Shown here piece by piece: positions 6,533-23,039 of a stretch of 64,000 nt of DNA. The notes beneath the pieces are model-generated. The model had not been told where the DNA came from, did not search any database, and saw only the letters and a list, made by a program, of their open reading frames with translations. Location of the stretch: positions 62,001 through 126,000 of the forward strand of contig JAFLJS010000023.1 of assembly GCA_022712895.1 (NCBI GenBank). Direction: 5' to 3'. Made by a program: the position numbers and the translations under genes. The stretch is from Desulfocapsa sp. (GTDB lineage Bacteria > Desulfobacterota > Desulfobulbia > Desulfobulbales > Desulfocapsaceae). Each line of letters starts with the position of its first letter. Position 1 is the stretch's first letter.

Positions 6533-7429
6533 ATGAAATCTTTAATGCGTGAGCCCCTGATTCACTTTCTGTTAATCGGTGCGGCGCTTTTTCTTTTCTT
6601 CGAAGTATTCGACGCCCCGGCTGATCAACAATCCAGCCGGGTCGTCATCACAAATGGTCAGATTGAGTTTTTAAAGGCAAGTTTTGCCCGGACCCGGCAA
6701 CGCTTGCCAACCAAACAGGAGCTACAGGGACTCGTCGACGGCTATGTGCGCGAAGAGATATTCTACCGTGAGGCGATGGCCCTGGGGCTGGACAAAGATG
6801 ACACGGTTATCCGCAAACGTTTGAATCAGAAACTCGAGCTTATGAGCGATGATCTCGCTGGTATTATAGTTCCGACCGATGAAGACCTCCACCAATTTCT
6901 GGAGACCCATGCAGAAAGTTTCAGGACCCAAACGCGGATAGCATTCCGTCATGTATACCTTAATGTCTATCAACGCGGTAATTCGACAGATGATGAGGCC
7001 ACCCGGCTGCTTGCACTATTGAGCGATGAAGCAAACAAATCTGACCCGGATACCCTGGGCGACAGCTTGATGCTGCCAGGAACCTTCAACCTTACCCCTG
7101 TCCATGAAATTGCAAAGATGTTTGGCGAACCATTCAGCCTTGAACTTGTCAACACCAAACCCGGGCAATGGATTGGTCCGGTTCAGTCAGGTTACGGTCT
7201 GCACCTGATTCTGGTAACCGAGCATATAGCAGGCCAAATACCACAGCTGGATGAAACCCGGGACACTGTTGAGTGGGAATGGTCTGCTGCCAATAGAAAA
7301 AAACTCAAAGAAAACATCTACAACGAGCTCCGTGAAAGATACACCGTTGTTTTTGAACAACCCGCAGACGGATCAGAAAATATCCAGACGATACCAACAA
7401 CACAGGTCGCTCAGGAGGAGCAGAAATGA
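6533..7429 (+). CDS. Membrane-anchored PpiC-type peptidyl-prolyl isomerase
   Basis: An N-terminal hydrophobic segment (FLLIGAALFLFFEVF, about residues 9-23) anchors or exports the protein. It is followed by a SurA/PrsA-like helical chaperone region and a parvulin domain at about 115-235 (FRTQTRIAFRHVYLNV ... VQSGYGLHLILVTEH). The protein would help fold exported proteins in the periplasm. It sits 16 bases after the DUF3604 gene and overlaps the first HupE gene by 4 bases, so a dedicated chaperone role for this operon's products is likely. Its length of 298 residues is normal for this group. Confidence 0.87.
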   Translation: MKSLMREPLIHFLLIGAALFLFFEVFDAPADQQSSRVVITNGQIEFLKASFARTRQRLPTKQELQGLVDGYVREEIFYREAMALGLDKDDTVIRKRLNQKLELMSDDLAGIIVPTDEDLHQFLETHAESFRTQTRIAFRHVYLNVYQRGNSTDDEATRLLALLSDEANKSDPDTLGDSLMLPGTFNLTPVHEIAKMFGEPFSLELVNTKPGQWIGPVQSGYGLHLILVTEHIAGQIPQLDETRDTVEWEWSAANRKKLKENIYNELRERYTVVFEQPADGSENIQTIPTTQVAQEEQK

Positions 7430-8436
7430 TGGGGTTGACCTGGTTTTCTGTTTTTATGCTGTTGGTTGCCAGCATTGTACCGGCTCTCGCCCACGAATCC
7501 CAACCAGGGACACTGGAAATAAAACAACTAGCTTCGAACAGGTACGATGTGACTTGGAAGGCACCGATCTATTATGGCAAATCGCATCCGGCCAGGTTGC
7601 AACTGCCTGTAAACTGGAAGGATAGTATCCAGCCGACCAAACGGCGCATGGCAGACTCCATCGTTTTCCATTGGGTTGTTGATGTTGGTCAAGAAAGCAT
7701 AGAAGGTGCAGTTATCCGCTTCCCCGGCCTTGAATCCACAATAACAGATGTATATGTGCGGCTGACCCGGCTTGATTCCACAATGATGACAGCGGTTGTC
7801 CGGCCGACCAAACCTTTTGTCGAATTGCGTGGTGAACGATCCTGGTATGCCACAGCTAGTGAGTATATCGGTCTTGGCTTTTACCACATCCTGCTTGGAG
7901 TTGATCATCTCCTCTTCGTACTGGGCCTGTTGCTCATTGTGCAGGGCAGGATGATGCTGATCAAGACAATAACTTCTTTTACTATTGCCCATAGCATTAC
8001 TCTTGCCATCGCCACCCTTGGCTTTGCCAGTATACCTTTACCGCCCCTGAATGCAGCCGTGGCGCTCAGCATTCTTTTTCTGGGGCCGGAGATCGTCCGC
8101 TCCTGGCGAGGCGAAACAAGCCTTACCAGCAGCTATCCCTGGATCGTTGCCTTTGTGTTCGGGCTGCTCCACGGTTTTGGCTTTGCCAGTGGACTCATCA
8201 CAACCGGGATGCCCAAGGTAGAACTACCCTGGGCCCTGCTCTGCTTTAATATTGGTGTTGAGCTGGGACAACTGGCCTTTGTCGTCATAGCTCTGGCCCT
8301 TGCATGGTCGTTCAGGACTTTGGAGATTCGTTGGCCGCGATGGGCCCTGGTAATACCAGCTTATACAGTTGGGAGCCTGGGGGCATACTGGACCATCCAA
8401 CGGATAGTAATTCTGATTGGTGGCCTTTTGAAATGA
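7426..8436 (+). CDS. HupE/UreJ family membrane protein (long form)
   Basis: This 336-residue protein has a signal peptide ending at PALAHES and a soluble N-terminal extracytoplasmic domain (to about residue 145), followed by six or seven hydrophobic segments. The HupE/UreJ signatures are GVDHLLFVLGLLL and HGFGFASGL, each with a histidine that may bind nickel or another metal. HupE/UreJ proteins act as metal permeases for hydrogenase or urease, but the long forms encoded with DUF3604 have no established substrate. A strong AGGAGGAG ribosome binding site lies upstream, and the start overlaps the ppiC stop (ATGA). It is the first of three HupE-like genes in tandem. Confidence 0.85.
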   Translation: MMGLTWFSVFMLLVASIVPALAHESQPGTLEIKQLASNRYDVTWKAPIYYGKSHPARLQLPVNWKDSIQPTKRRMADSIVFHWVVDVGQESIEGAVIRFPGLESTITDVYVRLTRLDSTMMTAVVRPTKPFVELRGERSWYATASEYIGLGFYHILLGVDHLLFVLGLLLIVQGRMMLIKTITSFTIAHSITLAIATLGFASIPLPPLNAAVALSILFLGPEIVRSWRGETSLTSSYPWIVAFVFGLLHGFGFASGLITTGMPKVELPWALLCFNIGVELGQLAFVVIALALAWSFRTLEIRWPRWALVIPAYTVGSLGAYWTIQRIVILIGGLLK

Positions 8437-9044
8437 AGAAGGAATTGAGGTATCTGAATTCGATTGTCTGCTTATTGATGCTGGCGGGATATCTTTTCTT
8501 CACACCGTCCGCCCAGGCCCATATTCAACAAGGTCAGGCTGTCAGTTTATTGACCGGCATTGAGCATCCCTGGTCAGGCCTTGACCATGTTCTGGCAATG
8601 ATCGCCGTTGGTCTCTGGGGGGCACAACTTGGTAACCCTGCCATCTGGATTCTGCCGATAACATTTCCCCTGGTAATGTCATTTGGAGCCATGATGGGAT
8701 TAATCGGCATACCGCTGCCCGGCATCGAGATTGGCATAGCAGTCTCGGCGCTTGTGCTGGGGATAATGATCCTTGGAGAAGTACGTCCAAAATTGATCGT
8801 GTCGGCTATCATAGTCGGCTGTTTTGCTATTTTTCACGGCCATGCCCATGGCACTGAACTGCCCGCCGGGCAGAGCGGGCTTCTCTACAGCATGGGATTT
8901 GTCCTTGCCACTGGATGTTTGCACGCTATTGGTATCGGTATCGGCCTGATCCACCGTTGGCCGATAGGCAAGTTAGCGTTGCGTGGTTCTGGAGGATTGA
9001 TAGCGGCAATGGGCATTTTTTTTCTATGGCAGGCAATGGTATGA
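8433..9044 (+). CDS. HupE/UreJ family membrane protein (short form)
   Basis: The start chosen is the ATG at 8433, which overlaps the previous stop codon as ATGA. It gives a 203-residue protein with a cleavable leader ending in SAQAHIQQG and about six membrane segments. It has the classical HupE motifs GIEHPWSGLDHVLAMIAVG near the N-terminus and FHGHAHGTELP in the middle, with histidines placed as in nickel/cobalt permeases. It is probably a metal transporter of the cytoplasmic membrane; the metal is unknown. The tandem arrangement with a longer and a divergent third copy suggests gene duplication or a multi-subunit complex. Confidence 0.88.
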   Translation: MKKELRYLNSIVCLLMLAGYLFFTPSAQAHIQQGQAVSLLTGIEHPWSGLDHVLAMIAVGLWGAQLGNPAIWILPITFPLVMSFGAMMGLIGIPLPGIEIGIAVSALVLGIMILGEVRPKLIVSAIIVGCFAIFHGHAHGTELPAGQSGLLYSMGFVLATGCLHAIGIGIGLIHRWPIGKLALRGSGGLIAAMGIFFLWQAMV

Positions 9045-9910
9045 AAATACATCAAGCAATAATAGCACGTTTATTCTTCAGTGCAGCTGCTGCGATGGTG
9101 TTCCTCATGCCAGATGTCGCAGCAGCACATCTGGTAACAACTGGTATGGGGCCCGTCTATGATGGTATAGGACACTTGCTGCTGACTACCGAGGATCTGG
9201 TACCGGCAATAGCTGTTGCCTTGTATGTTGGCCTGCGTGGAAAAGCTCTTGGGCGGAGAGCCCTGTTCTCTTTCCCTCTTGCCTGGCTGGCAGGCGGTTT
9301 TGCCGGACTTATGATAACCTGCACCCTCACTTTTCCTTTGCCAATGCTCTCGTTTATCCTCCTGGGGGGTCTTATAGCGGCTGACTTAAGCCTTCCAGAC
9401 AATATTGTCAGCACACTAGTCATAGTTGTCGGTATCACACACGGTTTTTATAACGGTACAACCATGGAAGGAGGGCCAGGAATTTCTGGATTGCTCGGCA
9501 TTACTGCTACACTGTTTGTCCTGATCGGCATCGCCTCTGCCTTTGTTGTATCTCTCCAGGCTGCATGGACAAGAGTAGCAGTCAGGGTTGCCGGCAGCTG
9601 GATAGCGGCCGTGGGATTGCTTATGCTTGGCTGGCTGGTGAAGGGAGCCGGTACCGCAGTTTCGTTTTTCATCATAGTGATCTGCACCTTTTTCTTTACG
9701 GTACCCAATACTCAGGCAGTAGAGCATGGAAGACTAATAGTTACTAAAGGCAGGATGATAGACCCTGCTGAGGAAACAGTAGATAAAAATGTTGAGATTC
9801 TCATTGAGGATAAAAAACTCAGTCTGGTGACAGAAGATACTATTGCCCGGGAAGATACGGATCTGGTGGTTGACGCCAACAAAGGCGTGTTGGAATGTAA
9901 TTTTAACTGA
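9041..9910 (+). CDS. HupE-like membrane protein with truncated amidohydrolase tail
   Basis: Starting at the ATG at 9041 (ATGA overlap), this 289-residue protein has a leader ending at VAAAHLV, and about six membrane segments with GIGHLLLTTEDLVPA and VVGITHGFYNGT in HupE-like positions. After the last segment there is a second signal-peptide-like stretch (FFIIVICTFFFTVPNTQA). It is followed by KGRMIDPAEETVDKNVEI ... DLVVDANKGVL, which matches the first 50 or so residues of amidohydrolases of the dihydroorotase/urease superfamily. The frame then stops (TGA TAG) before any metal-binding HxH motif. The simplest reading is that a neighbouring secreted amidohydrolase gene was deleted and its beginning became fused to hupE. 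Confidence 0.75.
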   Translation: MKIHQAIIARLFFSAAAAMVFLMPDVAAAHLVTTGMGPVYDGIGHLLLTTEDLVPAIAVALYVGLRGKALGRRALFSFPLAWLAGGFAGLMITCTLTFPLPMLSFILLGGLIAADLSLPDNIVSTLVIVVGITHGFYNGTTMEGGPGISGLLGITATLFVLIGIASAFVVSLQAAWTRVAVRVAGSWIAAVGLLMLGWLVKGAGTAVSFFIIVICTFFFTVPNTQAVEHGRLIVTKGRMIDPAEETVDKNVEILIEDKKLSLVTEDTIAREDTDLVVDANKGVLECNFN

Positions 9911-10006: not shown

Positions 10007-11635
10007 TTAGTCCCCCTCTATTACTGTTTTTCCTTGTTTGGTAGCACTGTGTTTAATGAGTTTTTCTGGGATAACGCCTAATTGCAACTCAGGACTCCAG
10101 TTCAACCACGTATCATCGGGATCTGCACTTAGTTCGAAATGGTGGCCATTGGCAAGCCTCTTTCCCATTTCCTTACCATCAGGTGTGGAAAAGGAAATTC
10201 CTCCTGCAATAAGGGTGGCCAGTGATTCGGTACTTATTTTCATGGTAGTCATCAATCCACCTTTCACACGGATACCGCTGGAGTTCCAGAATTTCGTGTT
10301 TTCTCGAATAAGATTAACATATGGAGGGGAAATATTTATATAGATCAGTACATTCTGGCCAGTAGGGGAGAGTTCATAACCGGTGGTCTTACCGACTTGT
10401 ACCTGACGGTAATAGACTGGTTTGTCATAACCAAGAGATCCCAGTCGATTTGTTTCAAGTACCAGGTTTAGCCCTGTACTAATTGTCATATCCACTGGTC
10501 TGCTGTCATGGACAGAAAATTGTGATGTTGCTTTGCCATTCCCTGGAATCAGATTCAGGTAAGGTCCGGAAATGATAGTCCCAAGATTAGAAACAGTTCC
10601 GGCATTTAATTTGGCACGAACAACATAAATATAAGTTCCTTCAACCAGAAGGTGTTTAAGCTTTTTGTTTATGTAAGCTTTGGCATGAACGTTTTTGTAG
10701 TCCTTGCTGAGAGTTAACTCACTGATAATGCCAATTTTCACACCATTGTATTGAATTGTCGAGTCTGCAGTCAGTCCATTTTCAATAGAAAAAATGAGAT
10801 CTATGCTTAAGTTGTCAGAATTGATAGCAGCCTGATAACTTTTATAGAGGTGATGAAAGGATGCATTACTTTTCAGGGCTTTACCTCCACCCGGGGTCAT
10901 AAAGCTGATGCCTCCACGCAGAATAGTTTTCAAAGGATCAACGTGAATAGACAATTTAGGAAGATTTACATCAATTTGGAGTCCGCTGCTAATGAAAAAG
11001 AGCGTCTTGTCACTCACATGTTTAGTGTATTTTGGATAAATCAGAATCTTGGTTTCTATGGATGTATCATCTTTTAAGATATTTGATATTACTTCGCCAA
11101 CTTCAATTTTTTTATAATAAACTGGCGAACCGGGTCCCAGGGACACGTCATGTTTAGCGGTAAGCGTCAGGTGTAAACCAGGGACACGGGATGAAATTGG
11201 TGGCGCTTCATTCAAAGCAACAAAAGAGTCTCCTGGAACTTTTGACGTACCAGGCTGCACCTCAAAATAACTGCCCTTAACCAGTGTGTCCAAACCAGTA
11301 ATTTTGTTAAAAGAAAACTCCGGCTTAACAACCCATATCTTACTGTCATCGGTGAGTTCTTCTTTGGCCTCTTTGATTATTTCTATATTGGCATTAATCC
11401 ATAGTAAATCAGGACTGATAGAAAAACTTTTTAAAGTTCCAATAGGCAAACCTTTAAAAAAGACTTTAGTTCTGTCGGCAGTGAGTCCTGTGGCATTTTT
11501 GATTTGCACCGTTATCATAAAACCGGATTTCTGATAATCTTTATAGAGCAATAATGCTCCAAGGAACAGGGCGAGCAAAGGGAGAATCCAAATGGGAGAT
11601 AAACCTTTTTTTGTCTTAACAACAGGCGTTTCCAT
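10007..11635 (-). CDS. pqiB: PqiB-type MCE-domain lipid transport protein
   Basis: This protein has one N-terminal membrane helix (LSPIWILPLLALFLGALLLY) followed by repeated MCE/MlaD domains (for example MITVQIKNATGLTADRTKV; later LNLIPGNG and LVLETNRLGSLGYDKPVYYR). It fits the PqiB/YebT group, which form periplasm-spanning tubes for lipid movement between the two membranes. The start at 11635 gives METPVVKTKKGLSPIW, which aligns with the E. coli PqiB beginning; an in-frame ATG at 11686 would overlap the previous gene by 8 bases, and neither has a good ribosome binding site. It is downstream of two PqiA-type genes on the same strand. Confidence 0.9.
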   Translation of the reverse strand: METPVVKTKKGLSPIWILPLLALFLGALLLYKDYQKSGFMITVQIKNATGLTADRTKVFFKGLPIGTLKSFSISPDLLWINANIEIIKEAKEELTDDSKIWVVKPEFSFNKITGLDTLVKGSYFEVQPGTSKVPGDSFVALNEAPPISSRVPGLHLTLTAKHDVSLGPGSPVYYKKIEVGEVISNILKDDTSIETKILIYPKYTKHVSDKTLFFISSGLQIDVNLPKLSIHVDPLKTILRGGISFMTPGGGKALKSNASFHHLYKSYQAAINSDNLSIDLIFSIENGLTADSTIQYNGVKIGIISELTLSKDYKNVHAKAYINKKLKHLLVEGTYIYVVRAKLNAGTVSNLGTIISGPYLNLIPGNGKATSQFSVHDSRPVDMTISTGLNLVLETNRLGSLGYDKPVYYRQVQVGKTTGYELSPTGQNVLIYINISPPYVNLIRENTKFWNSSGIRVKGGLMTTMKISTESLATLIAGGISFSTPDGKEMGKRLANGHHFELSADPDDTWLNWSPELQLGVIPEKLIKHSATKQGKTVIEGD

Positions 11636-11678
11636 AGTAATTACCAATGAGCGTTGGTGTATGTTCAGGAGTGTCTTT

Positions 11679-12308
11679 TCAGGCATCCCATAAAAGTCTT
11701 GAATCAAATGTGTGTGCGGCAATCATGGTACACACCACAACAGCTGCAAAATACGAAGCAGCAGGAGCTGCAAACGTAGCTGTGAAACTTCCAAATTCAA
11801 CCAAAGTTGCCATAAGTGCAATCACAAAAATATCGAGCATTGACCAGCGTCCGACAAATTCAATAAACCGAAACATAGCAGTTTTATGACGTAGCCCATG
11901 TTTCCACTTAAATTTGATGGATAGTAGAATTATGCTTAACCCGACTATTTTGAAAAGAGGCACGAGAATAGAAGCCACAAAGATGATCAGGCCAATACCG
12001 TATTCCTTACTATGAAAGAAAAAGAGAACACCATCCATAATAGTTGAATATTCACTGGACCCGAGAAAATCGACCCGCATTATAGGGAGCAGGTTTGCCG
12101 GGACAAAGAGGATTGCTGCAGCTATGATAAGGGCCCAGGTTGTGGAAATCGACTGGTGCTTTCGGAAGTGAACATTAGCATTACAACGTGGGCAGCCAAG
12201 GGGAACGTCAGAGGGAACCTTATTGGCATCTAATAGATATCCACAATCATGACATGCCATGAAACCCGATTCCATAGCTGTTTGTATTGTTTTGCTCGCA
12301 GTCATCAT
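11679..12308 (-). CDS. pqiA: PqiA-domain membrane protein (second half)
   Basis: This 209-residue protein starts with a rubredoxin-like Cys pair (CHDCGYLL ... LGCPRCNA), followed by four hydrophobic segments typical of one PqiA domain. It works with the MCE protein PqiB in intermembrane lipid transport and envelope maintenance. E. coli PqiA has two such domains in one chain; here the two halves are separate genes overlapping by 4 bases. This copy is immediately upstream of pqiB. Confidence 0.87.
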   Translation of the reverse strand: MMTASKTIQTAMESGFMACHDCGYLLDANKVPSDVPLGCPRCNANVHFRKHQSISTTWALIIAAAILFVPANLLPIMRVDFLGSSEYSTIMDGVLFFFHSKEYGIGLIIFVASILVPLFKIVGLSIILLSIKFKWKHGLRHKTAMFRFIEFVGRWSMLDIFVIALMATLVEFGSFTATFAAPAASYFAAVVVCTMIAAHTFDSRLLWDA

Positions 12309-12943
12309 TGTTTAATTGTCTTTGTTGAGGATTGTTTCAGCTCATCCAAAGCACTCCAAAAAATTTCAGGCTCAAGAGCTGATGTTGTAGCACGTGTCAT
12401 AAAGACCAGGAAGACAAAACAGAAAAAACCAATATCAAATTCAAGCGTTGCCATTTTGTGTATTTTAATAATGCTTACAATCAGGGCAATAAGGTACACA
12501 TCAACCATTCCCCATTCATCTAAATAATTAGCAGTTCTGAATAGAAAAAAGAGGGATTTTGAGTATAATCGAATTTTCAATTGCAGGCTGACGGAGAAAA
12601 GGATACTTAGCCTGACAAGAGGAAACAGGATTGAAGTAAGAAAAAGCAGGATTGTTACCAGATAATATTGCTGGTGATAAAAACTCAAAAACGCATCAAA
12701 GATTGATCCACTCTGCTTCATACCCATGGCGTGGATTGTTAAAAGGGGCATGAAAATCGCTGGTATATAGATCAGGAGGCCTGCTGTTGAAATGGCAAGG
12801 ACTTTTGTAATGGAGTTCGTTTTCTTCTGATATATGACTGTCTCGCAACGGGGGCAAAAAAGTTTTCTGCCACTGCTTGAATGAATTTTGTTGAGGAGTA
12901 AATCACAGCCAGGACAGGCAATATATGGGGTCGCAGATGCCAT
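12305..12943 (-). CDS. pqiA: PqiA-domain membrane protein (first half)
   Basis: The ATG at 12943 gives MASATPYIACPGCDLLLN, placing the zinc-type Cys pair (CPGCD ... LFCPRC) at the N-terminus as in other PqiA domains. About four hydrophobic segments follow (for example VLAISTAGLLIYIPAIFMPLL). The frame stays open upstream to 13243, but that part overlaps the divergent YkgJ gene and has no PqiA similarity, so it was left out. The start context has no clear Shine-Dalgarno sequence. With the next two minus-strand genes it forms a PqiA-PqiA-PqiB operon. Confidence 0.82.
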   Translation of the reverse strand: MASATPYIACPGCDLLLNKIHSSSGRKLFCPRCETVIYQKKTNSITKVLAISTAGLLIYIPAIFMPLLTIHAMGMKQSGSIFDAFLSFYHQQYYLVTILLFLTSILFPLVRLSILFSVSLQLKIRLYSKSLFFLFRTANYLDEWGMVDVYLIALIVSIIKIHKMATLEFDIGFFCFVFLVFMTRATTSALEPEIFWSALDELKQSSTKTIKQ

Positions 12944-13150
12944 GTATTTGTCAGGGAGATGTACCCATTCAGGCACAATAATGAGCCTCAACAAAGAAGA
13001 GGCAAATAGTGTCGGATTTGTGTTCGACAGCCGTGTCAATTGATTCAGAGCAGGAATAGACCGGTACTTTCTCTCTGTTATCTCTTTGGTTCTCTTAAGA
13101 AAAACGATAACATATCTTCTGGGAAAAATGAAGGAAAGAGTTGTTTGCCT

Positions 13151-13831
13151 ATGAAGCAAGGGGAAAAGAACAAGCAAATGAATGTTCAAAAAAGTTGTAA
13201 GCAGTGTGGTATCTGTTGCACCAAAGGTGGTGCGGCATTGCACATCGCAGATAGAGTACTTTTACAGGAAGGGAAAATACCACGTAGTGATTGTATTACT
13301 CTTCGTAAGGGAGAATTCGCATGGAGCCCTGTAAATGACATGGTTGAGGCAATCCAATCAGATATTGTCAAATTGCGTGGCACCGGTGGCGAATGGGTCT
13401 GCTGTTATTTTGATGTCTTAGCAAAAAACTGTGGAATTTATAAAAACCGTCCTGTTGCCTGTCGAACACTTCAGTGCTGGCAACCTGAAAAGAGTCTGGC
13501 AATGATAGGTAAAGATTTGTTGAGCCGTCAGGCTATTGTACAGGATGAGAAGTTTCTCCTTGAGTTAATAGAGAAGTATGAACGTGACTTGCCTTTACCC
13601 GACTTCTCGTCACTTTTATCAGATCTGAAACAGAACCCTGAAGAAACGATTCGCATCCTGGAAGAACTTATGAATCAGGATTTGAATTTCCGTAATAAAC
13701 AGGTTCAACTGTCAGCGAAAGTGGCTGCAGAGGAAATGTTTTTGTTTGGCAGACCGCTGTTTCAATTATTGCAGCCTTTTGGCCTAAGCGTTTACCAGAG
13801 GGGGAATCGTTTATGCTTGAAGCTGATTTGA
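13151..13831 (+). CDS. YkgJ-family cysteine cluster protein
   Basis: This protein has the zinc/iron-chelating CxxCxxCC-type cluster near its start (CKQCGICCTKGGAAL), with later cysteines in WVCCYFD, NCGIYKNRP and CRTLQCW. That is the YkgJ/Fe-S-oxidoreductase-like signature of unknown biochemical role. The C-terminal third is helical and not recognised. The start could be ATG at 13151 or 13178; the latter begins MNVQKSCKQCG. The frame is open further upstream, but that part overlaps the divergent pqiA region. Its 3' end overlaps a selenocysteine TusA-like gene by 19 bases, so the two are very probably translated together and may share a sulfur or metal relay function. Confidence 0.82.
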   Translation: MKQGEKNKQMNVQKSCKQCGICCTKGGAALHIADRVLLQEGKIPRSDCITLRKGEFAWSPVNDMVEAIQSDIVKLRGTGGEWVCCYFDVLAKNCGIYKNRPVACRTLQCWQPEKSLAMIGKDLLSRQAIVQDEKFLLELIEKYERDLPLPDFSSLLSDLKQNPEETIRILEELMNQDLNFRNKQVQLSAKVAAEEMFLFGRPLFQLLQPFGLSVYQRGNRLCLKLI

Positions 13832-14037
13832 TAGATTATCGAGGAGACTGCTGAAAAGGTTTTAAAGATGTGCGTGCGCGTCTTCAAACCATGTTAAGAA
13901 ATGAGGAATTCTCTTTTATTTGTGAGGCCAAAGTTGCAGATAAAATTGATAGGGTGTTAGCTTTGGCAGGTGGTGTGATCAGGAACAAAAAGAAGGTTGG
14001 AGAAGATACTGTTATTCGTGTTATGAAAGGTGAGTAA
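13813..14037 (+). CDS. Selenocysteine-containing TusA/SirA-like protein
   Basis: This gene is hidden because codon 14 is an in-frame TGA (13852-13854). The frame ATG 13813 to TAA 14037 reads MLEADLIDYRGDC-U-KGF, then a normal TusA-like beta-alpha-beta body with FSFICEAKVADKIDRVLA and EDTVIRVMKGE, for 74 residues in all. In TusA the motif is D-x-R-G-x-x-C-P; here the TGA falls exactly on the catalytic cysteine position and is preceded by Cys, giving a CU pair. A strong GAGGGGG ribosome binding site lies 8 bases before the ATG. A 12-base-pair hairpin sits directly after the TGA (13858-13890), placed as bacterial SECIS elements are. It overlaps the YkgJ gene. It probably encodes a selenol-based sulfurtransferase or redox protein. 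Confidence 0.85.
13858..13890 (+). promoter_or_regulatory. Bacterial SECIS-type hairpin
   Basis: Arms 13858-13870 (GGTTTTAAAGATG) and 13879-13890 (CGTCTTCAAACC) pair over about 11 to 12 positions with one bulge, one A-C mismatch and one G-U pair. The apical loop is TGCGTGCG and contains the GU that SelB usually recognises. The loop begins 17 bases after the TGA at 13852-13854, within the usual bacterial range. The hairpin is inside the coding sequence, as in bacterial selenoprotein mRNAs. Confidence 0.75.
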
Positions 14038-14044
14038 AAAAAAC

Positions 14045-14109
14045 GAATATCGAACAGGTAATGTCAACTGCTGAAGCGGAGGACTTCTACGCTTACCTAT
14101 TCGATATTC
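14045..14109. repeat. 17-base inverted repeat between convergent genes
   Basis: GAATATCGAACAGGTAA (14045-14061) is repeated in inverse orientation at 14093-14109 with one mismatch. The 31-base spacer contains a smaller GAAG/CTTC stem. It lies between the stop of the selenoprotein gene and the stop of the 4Fe-4S gene. It may act as a two-way transcription end, although no T-run follows either arm, or it may be a copy of a dispersed repeat. Confidence 0.6.
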
Positions 14110-14129
14110 TGTGCTTCTCTTGCCTCTGA

Positions 14130-14879
14130 TTACCAGGTCTTTTTGTCGATAACTGCACCCTGGGTGGAAATAGTGATCTGTTCAACAGGAACACTTTTTC
14201 CAGCACGTTCGATGGCTTTTTGAATTATGCCATTCATGGAAGAACAGCATGGAACTTCCATAATAAGAATGGTGATACTATTCAAATTGCAACTTGCGAT
14301 GATCTCAGCAAAACGTTGCGTGTACATCTCGGCATCATCGAATTTTGGACAACCCATCATAACGACTTTGCCCTGTAAATAATCAAGTTGAAAGTTCGGA
14401 GCAGATACTGCGCAACAATCTGCGGCAACAAGCAGATCAGCACCCTGTAAAAATGGAGCACTGGGGGGGACAAGGCGAATCTGTACCGGCCAGTGGGTCA
14501 AAGAGGAGGTTCCACCGCCAGCTGCCATTTGTAAGGGTTTGTTAGCTGTCTGGCAGGGAGTTTGTGGGGCAAACGTTTTGATTTGAGCAGAGGGACAACC
14601 TGAAGGTTTTGCTGCTTGCACTTCGCCCTCTTTTTGGTCGGCCAGATACTCTTCTACGGCTTCTTCATCAAAATCTTCAGCTTGACGTTCGATGATTTTT
14701 AAGGCACCGGTGGGACAAGAGCCGAGACAGGCACCTAGTCCATCACAAAGATTATCAGAAACAAGTTTTGCCTTTCCATCAATAATTTTTAAAGAACCTT
14801 CTGCACAATCTGTTACGCACTCACCGCATCCATTGCAAAGTTCCTCGTCGATCTCAATAATTTTTCGCATGATTATCAT
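14130..14879 (-). CDS. 4Fe-4S dicluster ferredoxin-type protein
   Basis: The start at 14879 has AGGA seven bases upstream and gives 249 residues. Two [4Fe-4S] motifs stand at the N-terminus: CNGCGECVTDC and CDGLGACLGSC. The rest (about 75-249) has further cysteines: GCPSAQ, ADCCAVSAP, MGCPKFDD and EVPCCSSMNG. The C-terminal part is seen attached to such ferredoxin modules in anaerobes but has no assigned role. It is likely to be a cytoplasmic electron carrier or Fe-S sensor-type protein. An FNR-type promoter about 130 bases upstream suggests control by oxygen or redox state. Confidence 0.85.
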   Translation of the reverse strand: MIIMRKIIEIDEELCNGCGECVTDCAEGSLKIIDGKAKLVSDNLCDGLGACLGSCPTGALKIIERQAEDFDEEAVEEYLADQKEGEVQAAKPSGCPSAQIKTFAPQTPCQTANKPLQMAAGGGTSSLTHWPVQIRLVPPSAPFLQGADLLVAADCCAVSAPNFQLDYLQGKVVMMGCPKFDDAEMYTQRFAEIIASCNLNSITILIMEVPCCSSMNGIIQKAIERAGKSVPVEQITISTQGAVIDKKTW

Positions 14880-15017
14880 GGTAATATCCTCATAAAAATT
14901 TTGTAGGTTTAATAAAGGCCAGTAGAACTTATGGGAACCCAAAATAGAGCCATACTTCATATCGAGTGGGTTCTGAATGGCAGTACTGGAAGTCTATACG
15001 TTAATATTTTGAGCCAT

Positions 15018-15436: not shown

Positions 15437-16168
15437 ATGAAGAAAAAAATTGCAGTGACCGCGCTTAGTATGCTTATCGCCCTGGGAACCACTACAGCTT
15501 GTTTTGCTTCAGGAAGTATCGGACACGGTAACATGTCTGTTTTTAAAGGTGAACAACTTATTGATAAATTGTCAGGTCAAAACCCAATTGCAGAAAGTTC
15601 ACTGCTTGTTTGTGATGGGAAATGTATGGTTAAATCTAAAGGAATTTCGCTCGTAGCTGCTGATCAGGCAAAGTTTGCTATTCAAAATGAAGATTCCGTT
15701 TTTAATCTTTATGTTCGATCCGGTAAAGTTGAGTACGTTATTAATGATAATGCACGTAAGATTGCTTTTCATACTCCTGAAGGATCATACACTGTAGCGG
15801 ACGTTATCTTTAATGCTGGTTCTTCTCCTGTTGTCAGAGGTTCTGTTCAGGTAAGTGACTCTGGTGAAACCGAAATTGAGGTTACAGAAGGTCGACTGGT
15901 TTTTGCCACAGGTGATGGTGTGAAAGCGGTTGATGCCAACAATAAGATTGTACTTGCGGTTGTTCCTACTGCCGGTGCTGGAGCAGTTGCTGCTGGTTCC
16001 GGACTAAGCACTGCTGCAATTGCAGGTGGGATTCTAGTCGCTACTGCTGTAGTTGTAACAACAGTTGTAGTTGTTGATAATAACAGCAGTAGTAGTAGCA
16101 CTGGAGCAAGTCAGCCTACCGCACCTACCCCTACTTCAAAGACTTCTGTTGCCAGTCCAAGTTCGTAA
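15437..16168 (+). CDS. FecR-like domain exported protein
   Basis: This 243-residue protein has a signal peptide (cleavage after ACFAS, near residue 26), then a FecR-type beta domain at about 30-165 (VKSKGISLVAADQAKFAIQ; VEYVINDNARKIAFHTPEG; EIEVTEGRLVFATGDG). A very hydrophobic valine-rich helix follows (IAGGILVATAVVVTTVVVV) and a Ser/Pro/Thr-rich tail. It is probably held in the cytoplasmic membrane by the C-terminal helix with the FecR domain in the periplasm. The ribosome binding site GGAGAG precedes the ATG. It is first in the exopolysaccharide region but separated from it by a terminator, so it is likely to be transcribed separately at high level. Confidence 0.78.
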   Translation: MKKKIAVTALSMLIALGTTTACFASGSIGHGNMSVFKGEQLIDKLSGQNPIAESSLLVCDGKCMVKSKGISLVAADQAKFAIQNEDSVFNLYVRSGKVEYVINDNARKIAFHTPEGSYTVADVIFNAGSSPVVRGSVQVSDSGETEIEVTEGRLVFATGDGVKAVDANNKIVLAVVPTAGAGAVAAGSGLSTAAIAGGILVATAVVVTTVVVVDNNSSSSSTGASQPTAPTPTSKTSVASPSS

Positions 16169-16204
16169 GCAGAAGTGGTTTTTGTTGTGGCAGGAATGAA
16201 ATCT

Positions 16205-16244
16205 GAAGGACTATTAGCTACTAGTTAATAGTCCTTCGTTTTTG
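16205..16244 (+). terminator. Rho-independent terminator after the FecR-like gene
   Basis: GAAGGACTATTA (16205-16216) pairs perfectly with TAATAGTCCTTC (16226-16237) around a 9-base loop, and a run of T follows (GTTTTTG). It lies 36 bases after the FecR-like stop and just before the Wza gene. Confidence 0.88.
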
Positions 16245-16275
16245 TATAATTCGAAAAACCTATTAAGAGAAGGCT

Positions 16276-17316
16276 ATGTTTCAGGTCAGATTGTTGAAAT
16301 TCCTTTTTATTGTCCCCATATTATTTCTGTTGATTGGATGTGCAGAGGAAAAGTTTGAAGCCACTACCGACCTTGAACAATTTAGAAAACAATACGAAGA
16401 AAAGCAAAAAAAGTTTAACAGAAGTCAGGATAAAGTTTATTCTCCTGATGCTTTAAGTGATGCTGGTGACGGGGATTACCGTCTAGGGGAAGGAGATCTT
16501 GTCACTGTAAAAGTATACGAAAGCAAAGATCTTGATACTGAAGTTCGGGTTTCATCTCATGGAGAGATTAGTCTGCCACTGTTAGATAATGTAGATGTAT
16601 TTAATCTCACAACAGCTGAGGCAGAAGATAAAGTAGAAGCTCTTTATAGGGAAAAATACTTACATAATCCGCATGTAATCATACATATAAAGGAGCATGT
16701 CAGTAAGCAAATCACCTTGGTAGGGGCCGTTAAAATGCCTGGCACTTATGATTATGTTACAAGGCGAAGGCTACTCGATGTACTTGCCGTAGCAAATGGG
16801 CTTCTGGAAGATGCTGGTTCGATTGCGTACGTTACAAGAGAGAGCCCTGAAACCAAAAAAAGGATGCGATATATGGTAAGCCTTGATGAATTATTAAAAC
16901 AAGGCAATATGCGACAAAATATAGTCGTTCTTGGTGGTGATGTTATTTTCATTCCCATGGCAGGACAATGTTTTATTGACGGTGCGGTACGTAAGCCCGG
17001 AACCTATGCATTAAAAACGAAAATGACCATAACAGAGGCACTTGCCCTTGCTGGTGGCTTGGCGTCGTACGCTGATGATGATGGAATAAAGCTCATTCGA
17101 TATATGGGAAGTGATCAGGAACGCGCTATTGTTTCTCTTAGTTACAGTGATCTACAGGCTGGTATGGGAGACACGCTCTTTTTGCAGGACCAGGATATGA
17201 TTTTTGCAGAATCAAGCAGCATGGGGCTTATGACATCCGGATCAGGGATCTCAATTGGCTTTATGGGAACTGGTTTTACATATAAAGATCCTGAAGCGAA
17301 TACATACAGTAAATAA
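16276..17316 (+). CDS. Polysaccharide export outer-membrane lipoprotein (Wza type)
   Basis: The N-terminus is a lipoprotein leader (PILFLLIGC, lipobox Cys at about 22). A Poly_export domain follows (YRLGEGDLVTVKVYESKDL at about 73) and two SLBB domains (ITLVGAVKMPGTYDY and CFIDGAVRKPGTYALK). The protein would form the outer-membrane exit channel for a polysaccharide, working with the chain-length regulator/tyrosine kinase encoded three genes downstream. It is 346 residues long, typical of the family. It is the first gene of a tightly packed operon running to 26558. Confidence 0.92.
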   Translation: MFQVRLLKFLFIVPILFLLIGCAEEKFEATTDLEQFRKQYEEKQKKFNRSQDKVYSPDALSDAGDGDYRLGEGDLVTVKVYESKDLDTEVRVSSHGEISLPLLDNVDVFNLTTAEAEDKVEALYREKYLHNPHVIIHIKEHVSKQITLVGAVKMPGTYDYVTRRRLLDVLAVANGLLEDAGSIAYVTRESPETKKRMRYMVSLDELLKQGNMRQNIVVLGGDVIFIPMAGQCFIDGAVRKPGTYALKTKMTITEALALAGGLASYADDDGIKLIRYMGSDQERAIVSLSYSDLQAGMGDTLFLQDQDMIFAESSSMGLMTSGSGISIGFMGTGFTYKDPEANTYSK

Positions 17317-17351
17317 TGGAATTGATGTCGGTTAAGGAATAAGAAGCTGCT

Positions 17352-18791
17352 GTGAATATCCAAGGCCAACTCAACAAAATCCCTGCATATCTGTTCTTTT
17401 TTATCTTAATAACAGTACCAATCATCTTTGGTGCTATTCATCCTATAATTTTTGCGTCATATACTGCCGTCGTGCTGGTTGGTATCGGTGGCTGGTTGTG
17501 CTTCTCTGTGCCTTTATCTGATGCTAAAAGTGGAACCATTTCAAAAAAATGGTTAATCCCCATAGTACTCGTGTTAATTTTTTCTGCATTTCAGTCTATT
17601 CCTATTCCCCTTGGATTCCTGGAGGTTATTTCTCCTTCAAGAGCCGAAAGAGTTGAAATGCTCAATACCTTGGCTCAAACCACTCAAAATTATGCTTCAA
17701 TTAGTGAACATGGCTTGGTGGGTTTGACATCAACCACCTTACTCTTTGCCCTTTTGGTTTATTTTTGGGGGTTAAAAAGAGTATTACACCAAAATATATC
17801 CAATTATCGTGTAGTTTATTTGTTGATTATCATACTAGGCACATTTGAGGCACTTTATGGATTATTCCAATTCCTGAGCCCCAGGATTGGAATTCTCTGG
17901 CTACCTTTACCAGGTGGCAGGGCTGCTCATGGAACTATCATTTATAAAAACCAATTTGCATCTTTTATGAATATGTGCTGGCCGCTTGCCATTGCAGCAG
18001 CAACAGTTCATTTACAGAGTTTGATGCATACAAGTAATAGTAAAAAAAGAAAAATCCCCCTTAAGGAACGTATAAGAAGGATCGATGAAAAAACAAAACT
18101 GGTACCACTTTTTCTTCTTGCAACAGGAGTTATGCTTTTATCCGTTCTCTTTTCTCTTTCAAGAGGTGGCATTATAGCAATGTTGCTGGTTATGATTTTG
18201 CTTAATTTTTTCTTACCAATTAGTAGAAAAATAAAGCTCGTATTTTTAGGAATGTTTACTCTGTTTATTACCGCATACGGTGCATTGCTTGGTCTTAATA
18301 CCGTTATCTCACGATTTGATTCAATTGGCCACTCAGGTGCCACGCGCTTTGACACTTATCTTGCGAGTATTCCAATGCTGCTTGATCATGCATGGAGTGG
18401 GATCGGCTTCGGTTCCTATAAGCTGCTTTCTCCTGTGTACCTCAAGGGCCTAAGTGCAAATATGCAATGGGATCACTCTCATAACGAGTATTTGCAACTC
18501 ATGCTTGAGTTTGGCATTCCAGTAGCAGTACTCATCTTTTCATGGTTGATCGCAGCTATGTTTTTAACCGGATCTAAACTTTACACCTTGATAAGCGATA
18601 CCAGCCAACCAGTTCATGCATCTGTTATTATTGCAGGGGGAGCATTCTGTGGCTTATTGGGTTTATTGATTCATGGTTTTGTTGATTTTGGCTGGCGATT
18701 ACCAGCAAATCTTTTTTATGCTGTTACATTAGCTGCATTAGTTTCTTACGGGTTTGAAAATAAACCCGATTTTGCAGATGTGAAATCATGA
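17352..18791 (+). CDS. O-antigen ligase/polymerase family membrane protein
   Basis: This 479-residue protein has about eleven hydrophobic segments and a Wzy_C/RfaL-type periplasmic loop in the second half (GVMLLSVLFSLSRGGIIAML; WSGIGFGSYKLLSP; WDHSHNEYLQLMLEFGIPVA, with the His-Asn-Glu residues conserved in this family). It would polymerise or ligate lipid-linked sugar repeats at the periplasmic face. The start is a GTG at 17352, with AAGGAA a little far upstream. The stop overlaps the next start by 4 bases. Confidence 0.88.
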   Translation: MNIQGQLNKIPAYLFFFILITVPIIFGAIHPIIFASYTAVVLVGIGGWLCFSVPLSDAKSGTISKKWLIPIVLVLIFSAFQSIPIPLGFLEVISPSRAERVEMLNTLAQTTQNYASISEHGLVGLTSTTLLFALLVYFWGLKRVLHQNISNYRVVYLLIIILGTFEALYGLFQFLSPRIGILWLPLPGGRAAHGTIIYKNQFASFMNMCWPLAIAAATVHLQSLMHTSNSKKRKIPLKERIRRIDEKTKLVPLFLLATGVMLLSVLFSLSRGGIIAMLLVMILLNFFLPISRKIKLVFLGMFTLFITAYGALLGLNTVISRFDSIGHSGATRFDTYLASIPMLLDHAWSGIGFGSYKLLSPVYLKGLSANMQWDHSHNEYLQLMLEFGIPVAVLIFSWLIAAMFLTGSKLYTLISDTSQPVHASVIIAGGAFCGLLGLLIHGFVDFGWRLPANLFYAVTLAALVSYGFENKPDFADVKS

Positions 18792-19528
18792 TACCTGATA
18801 TAGCAAAATTTTTAGATATGCATAATCATATCCTGCCGGGTATCGATGATGGGCCCAAAAGTCTTGAAGAAAGTGCAGAAATGGCTCGTTGCTATGTAAA
18901 TGTAGGAATAACGCAAATTATCACAACGCCACATTTTATCCCAGGCACTGCCTGGGCCGTCGGACGTCAGAAAATTGCAGAAAAGATAGCAAAGTTGACA
19001 TGTTTTTTAAAGAAAAAACAAATACCTTTGAAGATTTTTCCAGGGATGGAAATTGCCTATCATAAAACATTGCTTGATCGCTTTGAGAAAGGATTACTAC
19101 AACCACTTGCCAATAGTTCAACGTATTTACTTGAACCGTCTTTTCAGGATACGGCAGAGGATCTTTTGCTATGCTCAAAAAAACTGCAAGAGAAGGAGCA
19201 ACATGTCATCCTTGCTCATCCTGAACGAATTAAAACATTTCAGGATTCCTTAGAGCCTCTTTTGGATCAGGTACATGATGGTCTTGAAATTCAATTAAAC
19301 ACTGGAAGTGTCCTTGGCAAATTCGGCTCAGCAAGTCGGGAAACAGCAATGTGTCTGATAGAAAAGCAATGTGTCCATTATCTTGCTTCAGATGCCCACT
19401 CTGCCAATAATAGAAAACCATTAGATCGTGCGGAATGGAATGAATTGTCTGTGATTCTTGGCCCTGAATTGCTGACTACCCTCTGTATAGACAATCCCAA
19501 TATATTAATATCGACTTCTTATGAATAA
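18788..19528 (+). CDS. CpsB/YwqE-type PHP tyrosine phosphatase
   Basis: This 246-residue protein has all PHP metal-binding motifs of the CpsB family: DMHNHILPGIDDGP at about 9-22, TTPHF, HPERIKTF and SDAHS. These manganese-dependent phosphatases remove phosphate from the tyrosine-rich tail of the partner BY-kinase and so control polysaccharide assembly. The partner kinase is the next gene, overlapping by 8 bases. Finding a Gram-positive-style phosphatase in this Gram-negative operon is common in deltaproteobacteria. Confidence 0.92.
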   Translation: MIPDIAKFLDMHNHILPGIDDGPKSLEESAEMARCYVNVGITQIITTPHFIPGTAWAVGRQKIAEKIAKLTCFLKKKQIPLKIFPGMEIAYHKTLLDRFEKGLLQPLANSSTYLLEPSFQDTAEDLLLCSKKLQEKEQHVILAHPERIKTFQDSLEPLLDQVHDGLEIQLNTGSVLGKFGSASRETAMCLIEKQCVHYLASDAHSANNRKPLDRAEWNELSVILGPELLTTLCIDNPNILISTSYE

Positions 19529-21806
19529 AAATAGAAATCAGTACCCTGAATCAGATAATCAGTTGCTTGTCCGTGATAACAACCAACAGCAGAATCTTCC
19601 AAGTGTGGAGGTTCGTGAAGTTGTTCCCGAATTCAAGGATGAGATTGATCTTCGTGATCTTTTAGATGTTCTGATTCGAAGGAAGTGGGTCGTTGTAAGT
19701 TCATTGATCTTTATCTTCTTTTCTGTGGCCCTGATAACATTTTCCATGACCCCACAGTTCAAAGCTCGTGGTTCCCTGAAGGTTTCTGCACAATCATCTA
19801 ATTTAACAAAATTTGACAACCTTGAATCAGGTGCTTTGAAGACCATGGAGTTTCAGCAAACCCAGGTGAAACTTCTGCAAAGTGAGCAGCTTGCTCTCAG
19901 AGTTATAGATGTACTAGAGTTAAACCGGAACAAATATTTTAATTCTCAGGTCGACAGCAAAGAAGGATCAAATCATACTGGACTACTCGCATCCATTAAG
20001 AATTTTGTTCGTACAGATGAATCAAAGGATTCTATAAGTGTCCTTTCAGATGATGCGAAACAACAGATTCTTCAGGAAAAAATTCTTGGTAGTTTTAAAA
20101 ATCGTTTTAAAGTGAGTCCTGTTCGAAATAGTGAGCTTATTGAACTTACCTTTGAAACACCTTCCCCCGCATTGTCCGCAGAAATCACCAACACGGCAAT
20201 GGATGAATTTATAAATATGCACATGGATGGAAATTTGCAACGATCCCGTGTTGCGTCTCAGTTTCTTGAAAAGCAGATACTAGTAGCACAGATAAAATTA
20301 GAAAAATCTGAGCTCGCACTCCAAAAATTTGCAAGAAAAATTGGAGTAGTTTCATTGGATCCTAAGCTCAACATGGTACTCCGACAAATGGAAGAGCTTA
20401 ATGAAGCTCTTGCAAAGGCAAGATCAACACGGATTGCTGCTGAAGCTCGTCATGAACAAATTAAGGTAATCGATCTTGAGGAATTCACTCAAATTTCACA
20501 GAGTCCACTTATTCAGGATTTGAGAAGTAAATATTCGGTATTAAAAGCAGAGTACGAAGACTTGGGTACCACATTCAAACGTGAGTATCCAAAGATGGTT
20601 AAAATTAAAGCCAGAATGGATGAGTTGATAAAGAGAGCTAAAGAAGAGCGCCTGCTTATCATTAACTCAATTGCAAATGAATACAAAACTGCCTTGAAAA
20701 CAGTTGAGTTTTATACGGAACGTGCAGAGGAGCAAAAGCAGCGGGCACTGGATCTGGAAGAAAAGGCGACTCAGTACAAAATTTACGAGCGTGAAGTGTC
20801 AAGTAGTAAGACCATCTATAACAGTTTATTAGAACGTTCCAAAGAAATTGAGGCAACGGTTGGTGCTGCTGTTACCAACATACAAATTATCGACACAGCA
20901 AGATCACCTCTTTTACCTTATAAACCACGTGTAGCTTTAAATCTCCTTCTTGGAATTGTACTCGGATTTTTCACCGGAATTGGTCTCGCCTTTCTTATCG
21001 AATATTTTGATAACACCATTAAGAGCCCTGATGAAATGGCAGATCGTTTCCATATTCCAGTGCTTGGTCTTATTCCTTATGATAAAGAGTCTGTAGATAA
21101 TCGTAAAAATATGGCTCTGAAATTTTTCAACGATCCTCGATCACCAGTATCTGAGGCCTTTCGTACAACCATGACCTCTGTTCGTCTCTCTGCCGCTGAT
21201 GACCCTCCAAAAGCTATACTTATTACGAGTGTATTGCCTGGAGCCGGCAAAAGCTCACTTGCCAGTAATTCATGTCTGTCTTATCTCTCAGAAGATGAAA
21301 CTTGTCTGTTGATCGATTGTGATTTGAGAAAACCAAGTCTTCATCGGGTTTTTAAAGCAGGAGAAAAAGGAAAAGGACTATCAAGTGTGCTCAGTGGTAT
21401 GAGTAAACTCACTGATGTTATCACGGAAACGGAATACGAAGGTTTGGATTTTATCAGTAGTGGACCGTTACCTCCTAATCCTGCAGAACTGCTATCTTCA
21501 AAGCGAATGCGTCAATTACTGAATCTTGCGACTCGAAAATACGATAAAGTTATTCTCGATGGCCCTCCATATCAGGGTTTTGCTGAAATTCTTGTCCTGG
21601 CAAACATGGTAGACGGTGTTATCTTAATTGCAGTAGAAGGTGACACACCAAGGGAAGGAGTTAAGCACTTCAGAAAAGCCATAACCAATGTGGGAGGCAG
21701 AATTCTTGGTGCTATCATCAACAAAGCAGGACGTAAAAAAGGCTACACTTCCTATGGTGGCTATAAGTATTACGCTTATAACTATGAGTACGGCAAGGAG
21801 AGTTAA
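19521..21806 (+). CDS. Chain-length regulator fused to tyrosine autokinase (BY-kinase)
   Basis: This 761-residue protein has a Wzz domain with membrane helix 1 (VVVSSLIFIFFSVALITF, about 57-75), a long periplasmic coiled coil (about 240-420) and membrane helix 2 (about 470-492). The cytoplasmic kinase has Walker A GAGKSS (about 573), Walker A' LIDCDLRKPS and Walker B KVILDGPP. The C-terminal tail carries eight tyrosines (YTSYGGYKYYAYNYEYG), the usual autophosphorylation cluster. It sets polymer length and couples synthesis to export with the Wza protein; the CpsB phosphatase upstream reverses its phosphorylation. Confidence 0.94.
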   Translation: MNKNRNQYPESDNQLLVRDNNQQQNLPSVEVREVVPEFKDEIDLRDLLDVLIRRKWVVVSSLIFIFFSVALITFSMTPQFKARGSLKVSAQSSNLTKFDNLESGALKTMEFQQTQVKLLQSEQLALRVIDVLELNRNKYFNSQVDSKEGSNHTGLLASIKNFVRTDESKDSISVLSDDAKQQILQEKILGSFKNRFKVSPVRNSELIELTFETPSPALSAEITNTAMDEFINMHMDGNLQRSRVASQFLEKQILVAQIKLEKSELALQKFARKIGVVSLDPKLNMVLRQMEELNEALAKARSTRIAAEARHEQIKVIDLEEFTQISQSPLIQDLRSKYSVLKAEYEDLGTTFKREYPKMVKIKARMDELIKRAKEERLLIINSIANEYKTALKTVEFYTERAEEQKQRALDLEEKATQYKIYEREVSSSKTIYNSLLERSKEIEATVGAAVTNIQIIDTARSPLLPYKPRVALNLLLGIVLGFFTGIGLAFLIEYFDNTIKSPDEMADRFHIPVLGLIPYDKESVDNRKNMALKFFNDPRSPVSEAFRTTMTSVRLSAADDPPKAILITSVLPGAGKSSLASNSCLSYLSEDETCLLIDCDLRKPSLHRVFKAGEKGKGLSSVLSGMSKLTDVITETEYEGLDFISSGPLPPNPAELLSSKRMRQLLNLATRKYDKVILDGPPYQGFAEILVLANMVDGVILIAVEGDTPREGVKHFRKAITNVGGRILGAIINKAGRKKGYTSYGGYKYYAYNYEYGKES

Positions 21807-23039
21807 GTGAGAGTGCTGCGTTTTCTGTGCTTTTTTGTCTTAGTCTCTTTAGCACTGGTACAGTTTCGACTTGCCTTGTTTGAGCAAACTAAATACAGCA
21901 ATCATGAAAATGCTTCATCACTCAATAAATATCAGACCAATCCATACTTACTGTCCTGGTTAGCCAAACAAAAGCATCTGTTTGAAGCTGATCTAGAACA
22001 AGCCCAGTTACTATACAAACAGGCTTTACTGATTAACTCCGTCTATGTTCCAGCATGGCTCGGACTGGCTGAATTACGGTTTGATAAAAAGCAGAAACAA
22101 AATGCGAATGCAATCCTTGATTATACAAGTCAACTGACAGACAATGTGAAACGCTGGCGCTGGGATAAAACATTAGTTGCCTATCAGTTTAATCGAGAGG
22201 ATATTTTGGCAGTTGATCTTGCCTATATCATTCTGGAAATGCCTGGAAAGCCACGGAATGATGCTCTAAGGACAGCATTTTCTATATGGCCAGATCCTAA
22301 AGAAATGCAAAAAGAATTAGGTTCTGAAACTTTAGAATATCTTTTTCGCTACGCAACACGAACTAATAAAATAGAGCAGGGTCTTGCCCTTTGGCTGGAA
22401 ATCGAAAAGAAAGAAATAGAATCAGAAGCGCAACAAAAAGATACTCTTGCCTTTATCAACATGCTGATAGGGCAGGGCGAATTAAAAAGGGCAACTGAAA
22501 TCTGGAGAAAACACTTCAATCGTACAAAACTTTTATTTAACGGAAGCTTTACAGGTGCTCCTTTACAGACAGCATTTGGATGGAGAGTTGGAAAAAATAA
22601 AGGTGTCAGCTGGTACCTGACTAAGGAAAATAAAAAGAAAGATGACCTGACTGCCTTGCGTATTCATTTCAAAAGAAAGTCGAATATCAATTTATATAAC
22701 ATATATCAGATAGTGCCTTTGCAGGGTGGTAAAGTGTATGCTTTAAAAGGGAAAATAAAAACGAAAAAGCTTACCACAGATCAGTTACCTTTTGTTGAAG
22801 CGTTAGGTTATAAATGTAAAGCACCATACAATAAATCTGAGATGATGTTAGCTAATCAGCCATGGTCAGATCTCTATTTCGTTTTTGAAGTGCCGGATGA
22901 ATGTGACGCAATGCAAATACGTCTACGAAGAAGGGAAAGCAGACACATTGATAATAAATTGGCAGGTGATATCTGGCTAACAAACTTCAGCATTTCTGAA
23001 ACAGAAGAATTGTTTACAATATTAGACGAAAAACCATGA
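21807..23039 (+). CDS. TPR-containing exported or membrane protein of the polysaccharide operon
   Basis: The GTG start is preceded by AAGGAG at a good distance and directly follows the kinase stop. An N-terminal hydrophobic helix (FLCFFVLVSLALVQFRLAL) anchors the protein. Residues about 50-240 look like TPR repeats (AQLLYKQALLINSVYVPAWLGL). The C-terminal part (about 245-400) is a beta-rich domain (FNGSFTGAPLQTAFGWRV; WSDLYFVFEVP) resembling carbohydrate-binding folds seen at the end of other polysaccharide-operon TPR proteins. The precise role is not recognised; it probably assists assembly of the polysaccharide. Confidence 0.7.
   Translation: MRVLRFLCFFVLVSLALVQFRLALFEQTKYSNHENASSLNKYQTNPYLLSWLAKQKHLFEADLEQAQLLYKQALLINSVYVPAWLGLAELRFDKKQKQNANAILDYTSQLTDNVKRWRWDKTLVAYQFNREDILAVDLAYIILEMPGKPRNDALRTAFSIWPDPKEMQKELGSETLEYLFRYATRTNKIEQGLALWLEIEKKEIESEAQQKDTLAFINMLIGQGELKRATEIWRKHFNRTKLLFNGSFTGAPLQTAFGWRVGKNKGVSWYLTKENKKKDDLTALRIHFKRKSNINLYNIYQIVPLQGGKVYALKGKIKTKKLTTDQLPFVEALGYKCKAPYNKSEMMLANQPWSDLYFVFEVPDECDAMQIRLRRRESRHIDNKLAGDIWLTNFSISETEELFTILDEKP

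Follow-up and report, generated by a model that had tools for sequence, protein, structure and literature searches.

The question raised by this stretch of Desulfocapsa sp. DNA (64,000 nucleotides, here called the window) is whether an open reading frame interrupted by a single TGA is a selenoprotein gene and, if so, what kind of protein it specifies. The frame occupies positions 13813–14037 of the forward strand, from an ATG at 13813 to a TAA at 14035–14037, and its sole in-frame TGA is at 13852–13854. A complete coding body continues past this codon. With the TGA read as selenocysteine (Sec, U), the translation is MLEADLIDYRGDCUKGFKDVRARLQTMLRNEEFSFICEAKVADKIDRVLALAGGVIRNKKKVGEDTVIRVMKGE, a product of 74 residues that includes Sec14 within a DYRGDCU motif. 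A preliminary description of this DNA had proposed a hidden selenocysteine gene with a Cys-Sec (CU) active site, related to TusA/SirA, equipped with a ribosome binding site and overlapping a YkgJ gene. The features of the gene itself were borne out. The TGA is preceded by TGC for Cys13 (the codon pair spans 13849–13854), a Shine–Dalgarno-like GAGGGGG is present at 13798–13804, 8 nt 5′ of the ATG, and the upstream gene for a YkgJ-type CxxCxxCC protein (13151–13831, forward strand, start uncertain; PF03692, E = 6e-7) terminates at TGA 13829–13831 and so shares 19 nt with the frame. On the downstream side, a convergent neighbouring gene for a ferredoxin-like Fe–S protein lies at 14130–14960 on the reverse strand, with a listed start that is probably too long. 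Between the two genes is an imperfect inverted repeat (14044–14112; CGAATATCGAACAGGTAA ... TTACCTATTCGATATTC), possibly a bidirectional terminator. When both strands of the window were scanned mechanically for frames that read through a TGA and have a bSECIS-like hairpin behind it, only four sites passed. The stem behind TGA 13852 is the longest, or equal longest, and the peptides flanking the other three TGAs (54588 on the forward strand, 31436 and 12990 on the reverse) appear non-coding.

We assessed the conservation of the interrupted frame at three scales. About 95 non-redundant relatives, from Desulfobulbales and other Thermodesulfobacteriota, have a TGA at the same codon within an invariant Cys-TGA pair. 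Of 193 related genomes, 49 gave a match, which almost always contains a single TGA, at codon 14; this codon is TGA in 43 of the 49 positive relatives, and the Sec copies have 34–63% identity. Profile searches over 395 genomes of the phylum returned 28 strong matches, or 32 with a wider profile (E ≤ 3e-15), all 32 of which have exactly one TGA; below them comes a sharp fall in score, to remote TusA proteins and chance matches. Finally, a DNA pattern scan that included the TGA, run on one genome per species (84,980), identified 62 loci in Desulfobulbaceae/Desulfobulbales and other deltaproteobacterial MAGs. The hosts include Desulfocapsa, Desulfobulbus, Desulfurivibrio, Candidatus Electrothrix and the cultured Desulfogranum mediterraneum DSM 13871. 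One member (L157, JAFDEW010000106.1) is on a MAG labelled Myxococcota, outside the phylum of all others, which reflects either misbinning or transfer.

Coding sequence is conserved on both sides of the in-frame UGA in several species. In a wide alignment (A4, 52 rows) the Cys-Sec pair provides the only invariant positions, Cys37 not being retained in all subfamilies. For the part of the gene after the hairpin, dN/dS was mostly 0.09–0.57 between close pairs, which alone were used because at larger distances the NG86 estimate saturates (overall median 0.67). As judged from these substitution patterns, the frame after the TGA is under purifying selection. Several genomes carry two or three paralogues of the gene, one of which (L027, G018; 1501–1692) retains the Sec-TGA and an intact hairpin, has an extra TAA 10 codons on and appears to be a decaying copy. 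The gene is missing from several complete genomes of the same genus and is therefore dispensable. There is practically no chance that the TGA is a true stop, arising from a sequencing error or a pseudogene, with the downstream frame as a relic: gene callers would terminate at this codon and a few copies have additional stops (as in L027), but dozens of genomes share the TGA, the conserved protein and a covarying hairpin, a codon present in so many genomes is not a misread TGC or TGT, and we reject this explanation on the conservation of the TGA across relatives and phylum.

Directly behind the TGA, folding and pairing statistics delineate a hairpin on the forward strand with a 7-bp stem (13866–13872 paired with 13877–13883) and a 4-nt CGTG loop (13873–13876). 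Published constraints on bSECIS elements specify a loop of 3–9 nt, a stem of 4–16 bp, a G in loop position 1 or 2, a loop 16–37 nt from the UGA and an MFE of at most −7.5 (PMC13188914). The hairpin falls within all of these ranges, with a loop of 4 nt that begins 18 nt after the UGA, a stem of 7–8 bp, G at loop position 2 and an MFE of −12.7 for a 42-nt segment of the window, so the bSECIS check suggested in the preliminary description had a positive outcome. The G at loop position 2 is invariant among relatives. All seven pairs (positions 15–21 with 26–32, counted from the T of the TGA) form in 89 of 95 non-redundant sequences, and 98.1% of the cells counted are paired, a level equalled in none of 500 shuffles and far above that of slid partners. 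Five of the seven pairs vary on both sides, and the stem shows compensatory changes.

The hairpin lies over the well-conserved peptide K-D-V-R-x-R-L, and its conservation could in principle be a by-product of that peptide. This has a negligible probability and was rejected by synonymous codon shuffling, which destroys the stem, leaving it complete in only 2.6 ± 1.6 of the 95 sequences. The same reading is also contradicted at one pair in particular. The residue two past the Val varies (Ala, Leu, Arg, Val or Thr), and the Val codon varies in step at its third base, which keeps the pair intact. Thus, the RNA constrains the protein.

A natural control is provided by one clade of the genus g33, in which the gene is in the same position, with tatC upstream, and the CU pair has been replaced in a single event by TL or IL. 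The proteins of this clade read DTL or DIL, and where Sec has given way to Leu the hairpin has decayed. A further locus in the Thr-Leu clade (L065, G144; about 1956–1965) reads ACC TGA, the Cys codon being gone, the TGA present and the hairpin decayed; this TGA may be a genuine stop, an intermediate state or an error.

Decoding of the UGA would require the Sec machinery, and the check for selA, selB, selC and selD found all four in the genome, each above its curated cut-off: tRNA-Sec at 77 bits, selA at 613 bits, selB at 384 bits and selD at 373 bits. The selD gene (L106, G000:C44:78532-79473) is itself a TGA-containing Sec gene. Because tRNA-Sec is present in 166 of the 193 relatives, its co-occurrence with the selenoprotein gene is uninformative. 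We propose that the UGA at codon 14 would be read as selenocysteine by SelB and tRNA-Sec, aided by the bSECIS hairpin just 3′. The conservation of the TGA, the hairpin and the Sec machinery thus strongly support the proposed hidden selenocysteine gene and its CU site, none of the three refuting conditions set out in the preliminary description having been borne out, and the frame at 13813–14037 almost certainly encodes a selenoprotein with Sec at position 14.

Selenoproteins are usually, though not obligatorily, accompanied by Cys forms, and the preliminary description expected Cys homologues at codon 14 in relatives. This expectation failed. A pattern scan of the 84,980 species for the Cys-for-Sec form DCCxGx[KR]D[VI]R, a single motif that a more divergent CC form might escape, found no relative, and the profile searches of the phylum recovered TGA members and remote TusA proteins only. 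The authors of deep-Sep stated in 2025 that Cys homologues now seem to exist for every known selenoprotein, and their method retains a new candidate only when a Sec homologue is already known for it or when it has two or more Cys homologues (PMC12013277). Discovery methods that depend on Cys homologues would discard the present family, which is also invisible to current annotation.

We next consider the fold. The window protein and a remote member were modelled with AlphaFold (pLDDT 89.5 and 95.5, respectively), and both models have the beta-alpha-beta-alpha-beta-beta order of TusA, with the Cys-Sec pair where helix 1 begins. In VIA-align comparisons, the top PDB matches of both models were YeeD/TsuB and TusA/SirA-like chains (Z 10.8–9.0 and 10.4–9.2), and in the structure matches the YeeD/TusA entries stood somewhat above Alba, IF3-C and methyltransferase domains; in a plain Foldseek list for the remote-member model, PrmA tied with TusA. 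A sequence search of solved structures gave nothing relevant. On these models, a TusA-like fold is very probable. For the main reading, that the frame encodes a selenoprotein and that this protein has a TusA-like fold, we put the joint probability at roughly 0.88.

Membership of the TusA family is a separate matter. Neither the Pfam nor the NCBIfam TusA model scored the window protein, the Pfam model (PF01206) having no match at E ≤ 1. Members touch the Pfam model in only 3 of 54 and 6 of 52 cases, with a best E of 0.0014, all below its curated family cut-off; TusA is nevertheless the Pfam family that most members touch, weakly, and the next profile matches inspected outside the selenoprotein family were TusA-type proteins. 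Alignment of profiles with hhalign to a local TusA alignment gave 1–20% probability and left the active-site region unaligned. The CPxP motif is absent from the members, which have CU[K/W/R][GA] instead. The likeness to TusA/SirA that had been suggested for this gene therefore stands for the fold and for a remote profile relationship but not for the family as modelled, and we rejected filing the protein as a TusA family member because it lacks CPxP and scores below the cut-off. It is probably a distant TusA descendant, outside the family as defined. For the suggested placement of the TGA on the catalytic cysteine of TusA, the register is ambiguous by one residue: aligned from the D-x-R-G strand, Sec14 matches the TusA cysteine, but aligned from the helix Cys13 does so. 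Ordinary CPxP TusA proteins coexist with the selenoprotein in the same genomes, and the window genome has a separate long ORF with a YedF-type TusA domain. The selenoprotein itself lacks the SirA-like plus DsrE-like architecture of YedF (TIGR03527) and had no NCBIfam match.

Gene neighbourhoods differ between lineages. In Desulfocapsa-type loci ykgJ is conserved upstream and an Fe–S protein gene, a neighbour in many loci, is convergent downstream. The neighbour is creA in Electrothrix/Desulfobulbus-type loci, tatC in g33 and a NapH-like gene elsewhere; no universal partner was found across the loci inspected. With neighbours that vary between clades, the function cannot be read from context. 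In the window, the wider surroundings comprise three consecutive ORFs for HupE/UreJ-type membrane protein-like products (7426–9910, forward), the third of which extends into a short C-terminal stretch resembling a truncated amidohydrolase start; a PqiB/MlaD-like and two PqiA-like ORFs (10007–13243, reverse), a cluster that also precedes the ykgJ and selenoprotein genes at about seven loci; and, beyond the convergent Fe–S gene, an apparent exopolysaccharide locus (15437–23039, forward) with FecR-like, polysaccharide export, O-antigen ligase-like, PHP phosphatase and BY-kinase type Wzc genes.

One clade outside the order, and that clade only, links the gene to a regulator. In eight of its nine members, a LysR_Se gene is immediately upstream, and in seven of these eight genomes the start of the selenoprotein gene overlaps the LysR_Se stop (ATGA) or is no more than about 30 nt away from it. 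Six of the eight regulators were scored and pass the cut-off of NF040786 (LysR_Sec_metab, the model for LysR regulators associated with selenium metabolism); the other two are homologous by tblastn. The proposed role of LysR_Se is selenophosphate sensing and regulation of Sec genes; the TusA-type domain already known from selenium metabolism is that of YedF, a CPxP protein of SirA and DsrE domains (PMC5322559).

These observations suggest a working model in which a TusA-fold product presents its invariant Cys-Sec pair where helix 1 begins, the site of the sulfur-carrying cysteine of TusA. Sec14 and Cys13 might cycle between selenol/thiol and selenenylsulfide states, or might carry sulfane sulfur or selenium as a perselenide or persulfide that is handed to a partner. 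In YeeD, the corresponding cysteine forms a persulfide and related adducts (PMC11073785), which illustrates the chemistry that a TusA fold supports. The odds of such a chalcogen-carrier or redox role are just short of even. The position of the gene directly behind LysR_Se in one lineage makes homeostasis of selenium (or of sulfur linked to it) the likeliest setting, in which the protein would carry Se/S or report selenium status; a link specifically to selenium metabolism is a tentative assignment, somewhat short of even odds. A bolder proposal, which on balance we regard as unlikely, is that Sec cannot be replaced by Cys in this family because the CU protein handles selenium itself, either as a selenium carrier to SelD or as a sensor, translationally coupled to LysR_Se, whose own synthesis reports selenium supply.

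Two other roles for the same selenoprotein have to be weighed. It may be a redox or metal-binding protein, acting as a selenenylsulfide switch or in peroxide or metal(loid) detoxification and merely sharing the TusA fold. The CU motifs of the metal-related selenoproteins HgcA, SaoL and MbdU (PMC13188914) and the CxxCxxCC protein upstream in Desulfocapsa-type loci are consistent with this idea, but that neighbour is clade-specific and the protein has only two invariant ligating residues, with Cys37 lost in some subfamilies; we consider this role improbable. The other is a sulfur-side role, in which a TusA variant would feed or buffer sulfane sulfur for dissimilatory sulfur metabolism, as in sulfur disproportionation or cable bacteria, and use Sec for speed or redox potential. 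The hosts include Desulfocapsa, Desulfurivibrio and Electrothrix, YeeD/TusA is the closest fold, and TusA of cable bacteria passes sulfur to type II DsrEFH (PMC13293266). However, YeeE, DsrE, Dsr and Tus genes were not recognised adjoining the gene in the loci inspected, the same genomes already have ordinary CPxP TusA proteins, and the one clade with a regulator points to LysR_Se. A sulfur-side role is therefore possible but rather doubtful. The chalcogen-carrier reading set in selenium homeostasis is the one that we retain, and a role in handling selenium can be tested directly through the LysR_Se neighbourhood.

The family was not found in current inventories. Among the 119 prokaryotic selenoprotein families listed in 2026 there is no TusA/SirA-like entry (PMC13188914), no NCBIfam model of June 2026 has a meaningful match to the members, and text searches of the literature on selenoproteins with TusA or SirA yielded no Sec-containing TusA-like protein, an earlier mention outside the lists being possible. 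Thus, this is a previously unlisted selenoprotein family with a predicted TusA-like fold, distinguished by its Sec-only pattern and its coupling to LysR_Se, and it spans sulfate reducers, sulfur disproportionators and cable bacteria.

Comparison with known systems places the protein beside several families without merging it into any. GrdA, the glycine reductase selenoprotein A, was similarly long believed to have no Cys homologue (PMC12013277), but it is an unrelated protein and its Cys homologues have since been reported. The known CU-motif selenoproteins (HgcA, SaoL, SaoC, MbdU, KCU-star and Csac_0668; PMC13188914) share the vicinal Cys-Sec pair but belong to unrelated families, and no NCBIfam model matches the members meaningfully. 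YedF (TIGR03527) offers a TusA-type domain tied to selenium genes (PMC5322559), but it has CPxP and a DsrE domain and no Sec, whereas the selenoprotein is a single domain of 74 residues. Set against TusA/SirA proteins (PF01206, including YeeD/TsuB), the selenoprotein differs in having CU[K/W/R]x in place of CPxP, in its Sec and in its sub-cut-off score, but it shares with them the beta-alpha-beta-alpha-beta-beta order, a length of about 75 residues, the D-x-R-G strand and, within the one-residue ambiguity of register, a putative reactive chalcogen residue where helix 1 begins.
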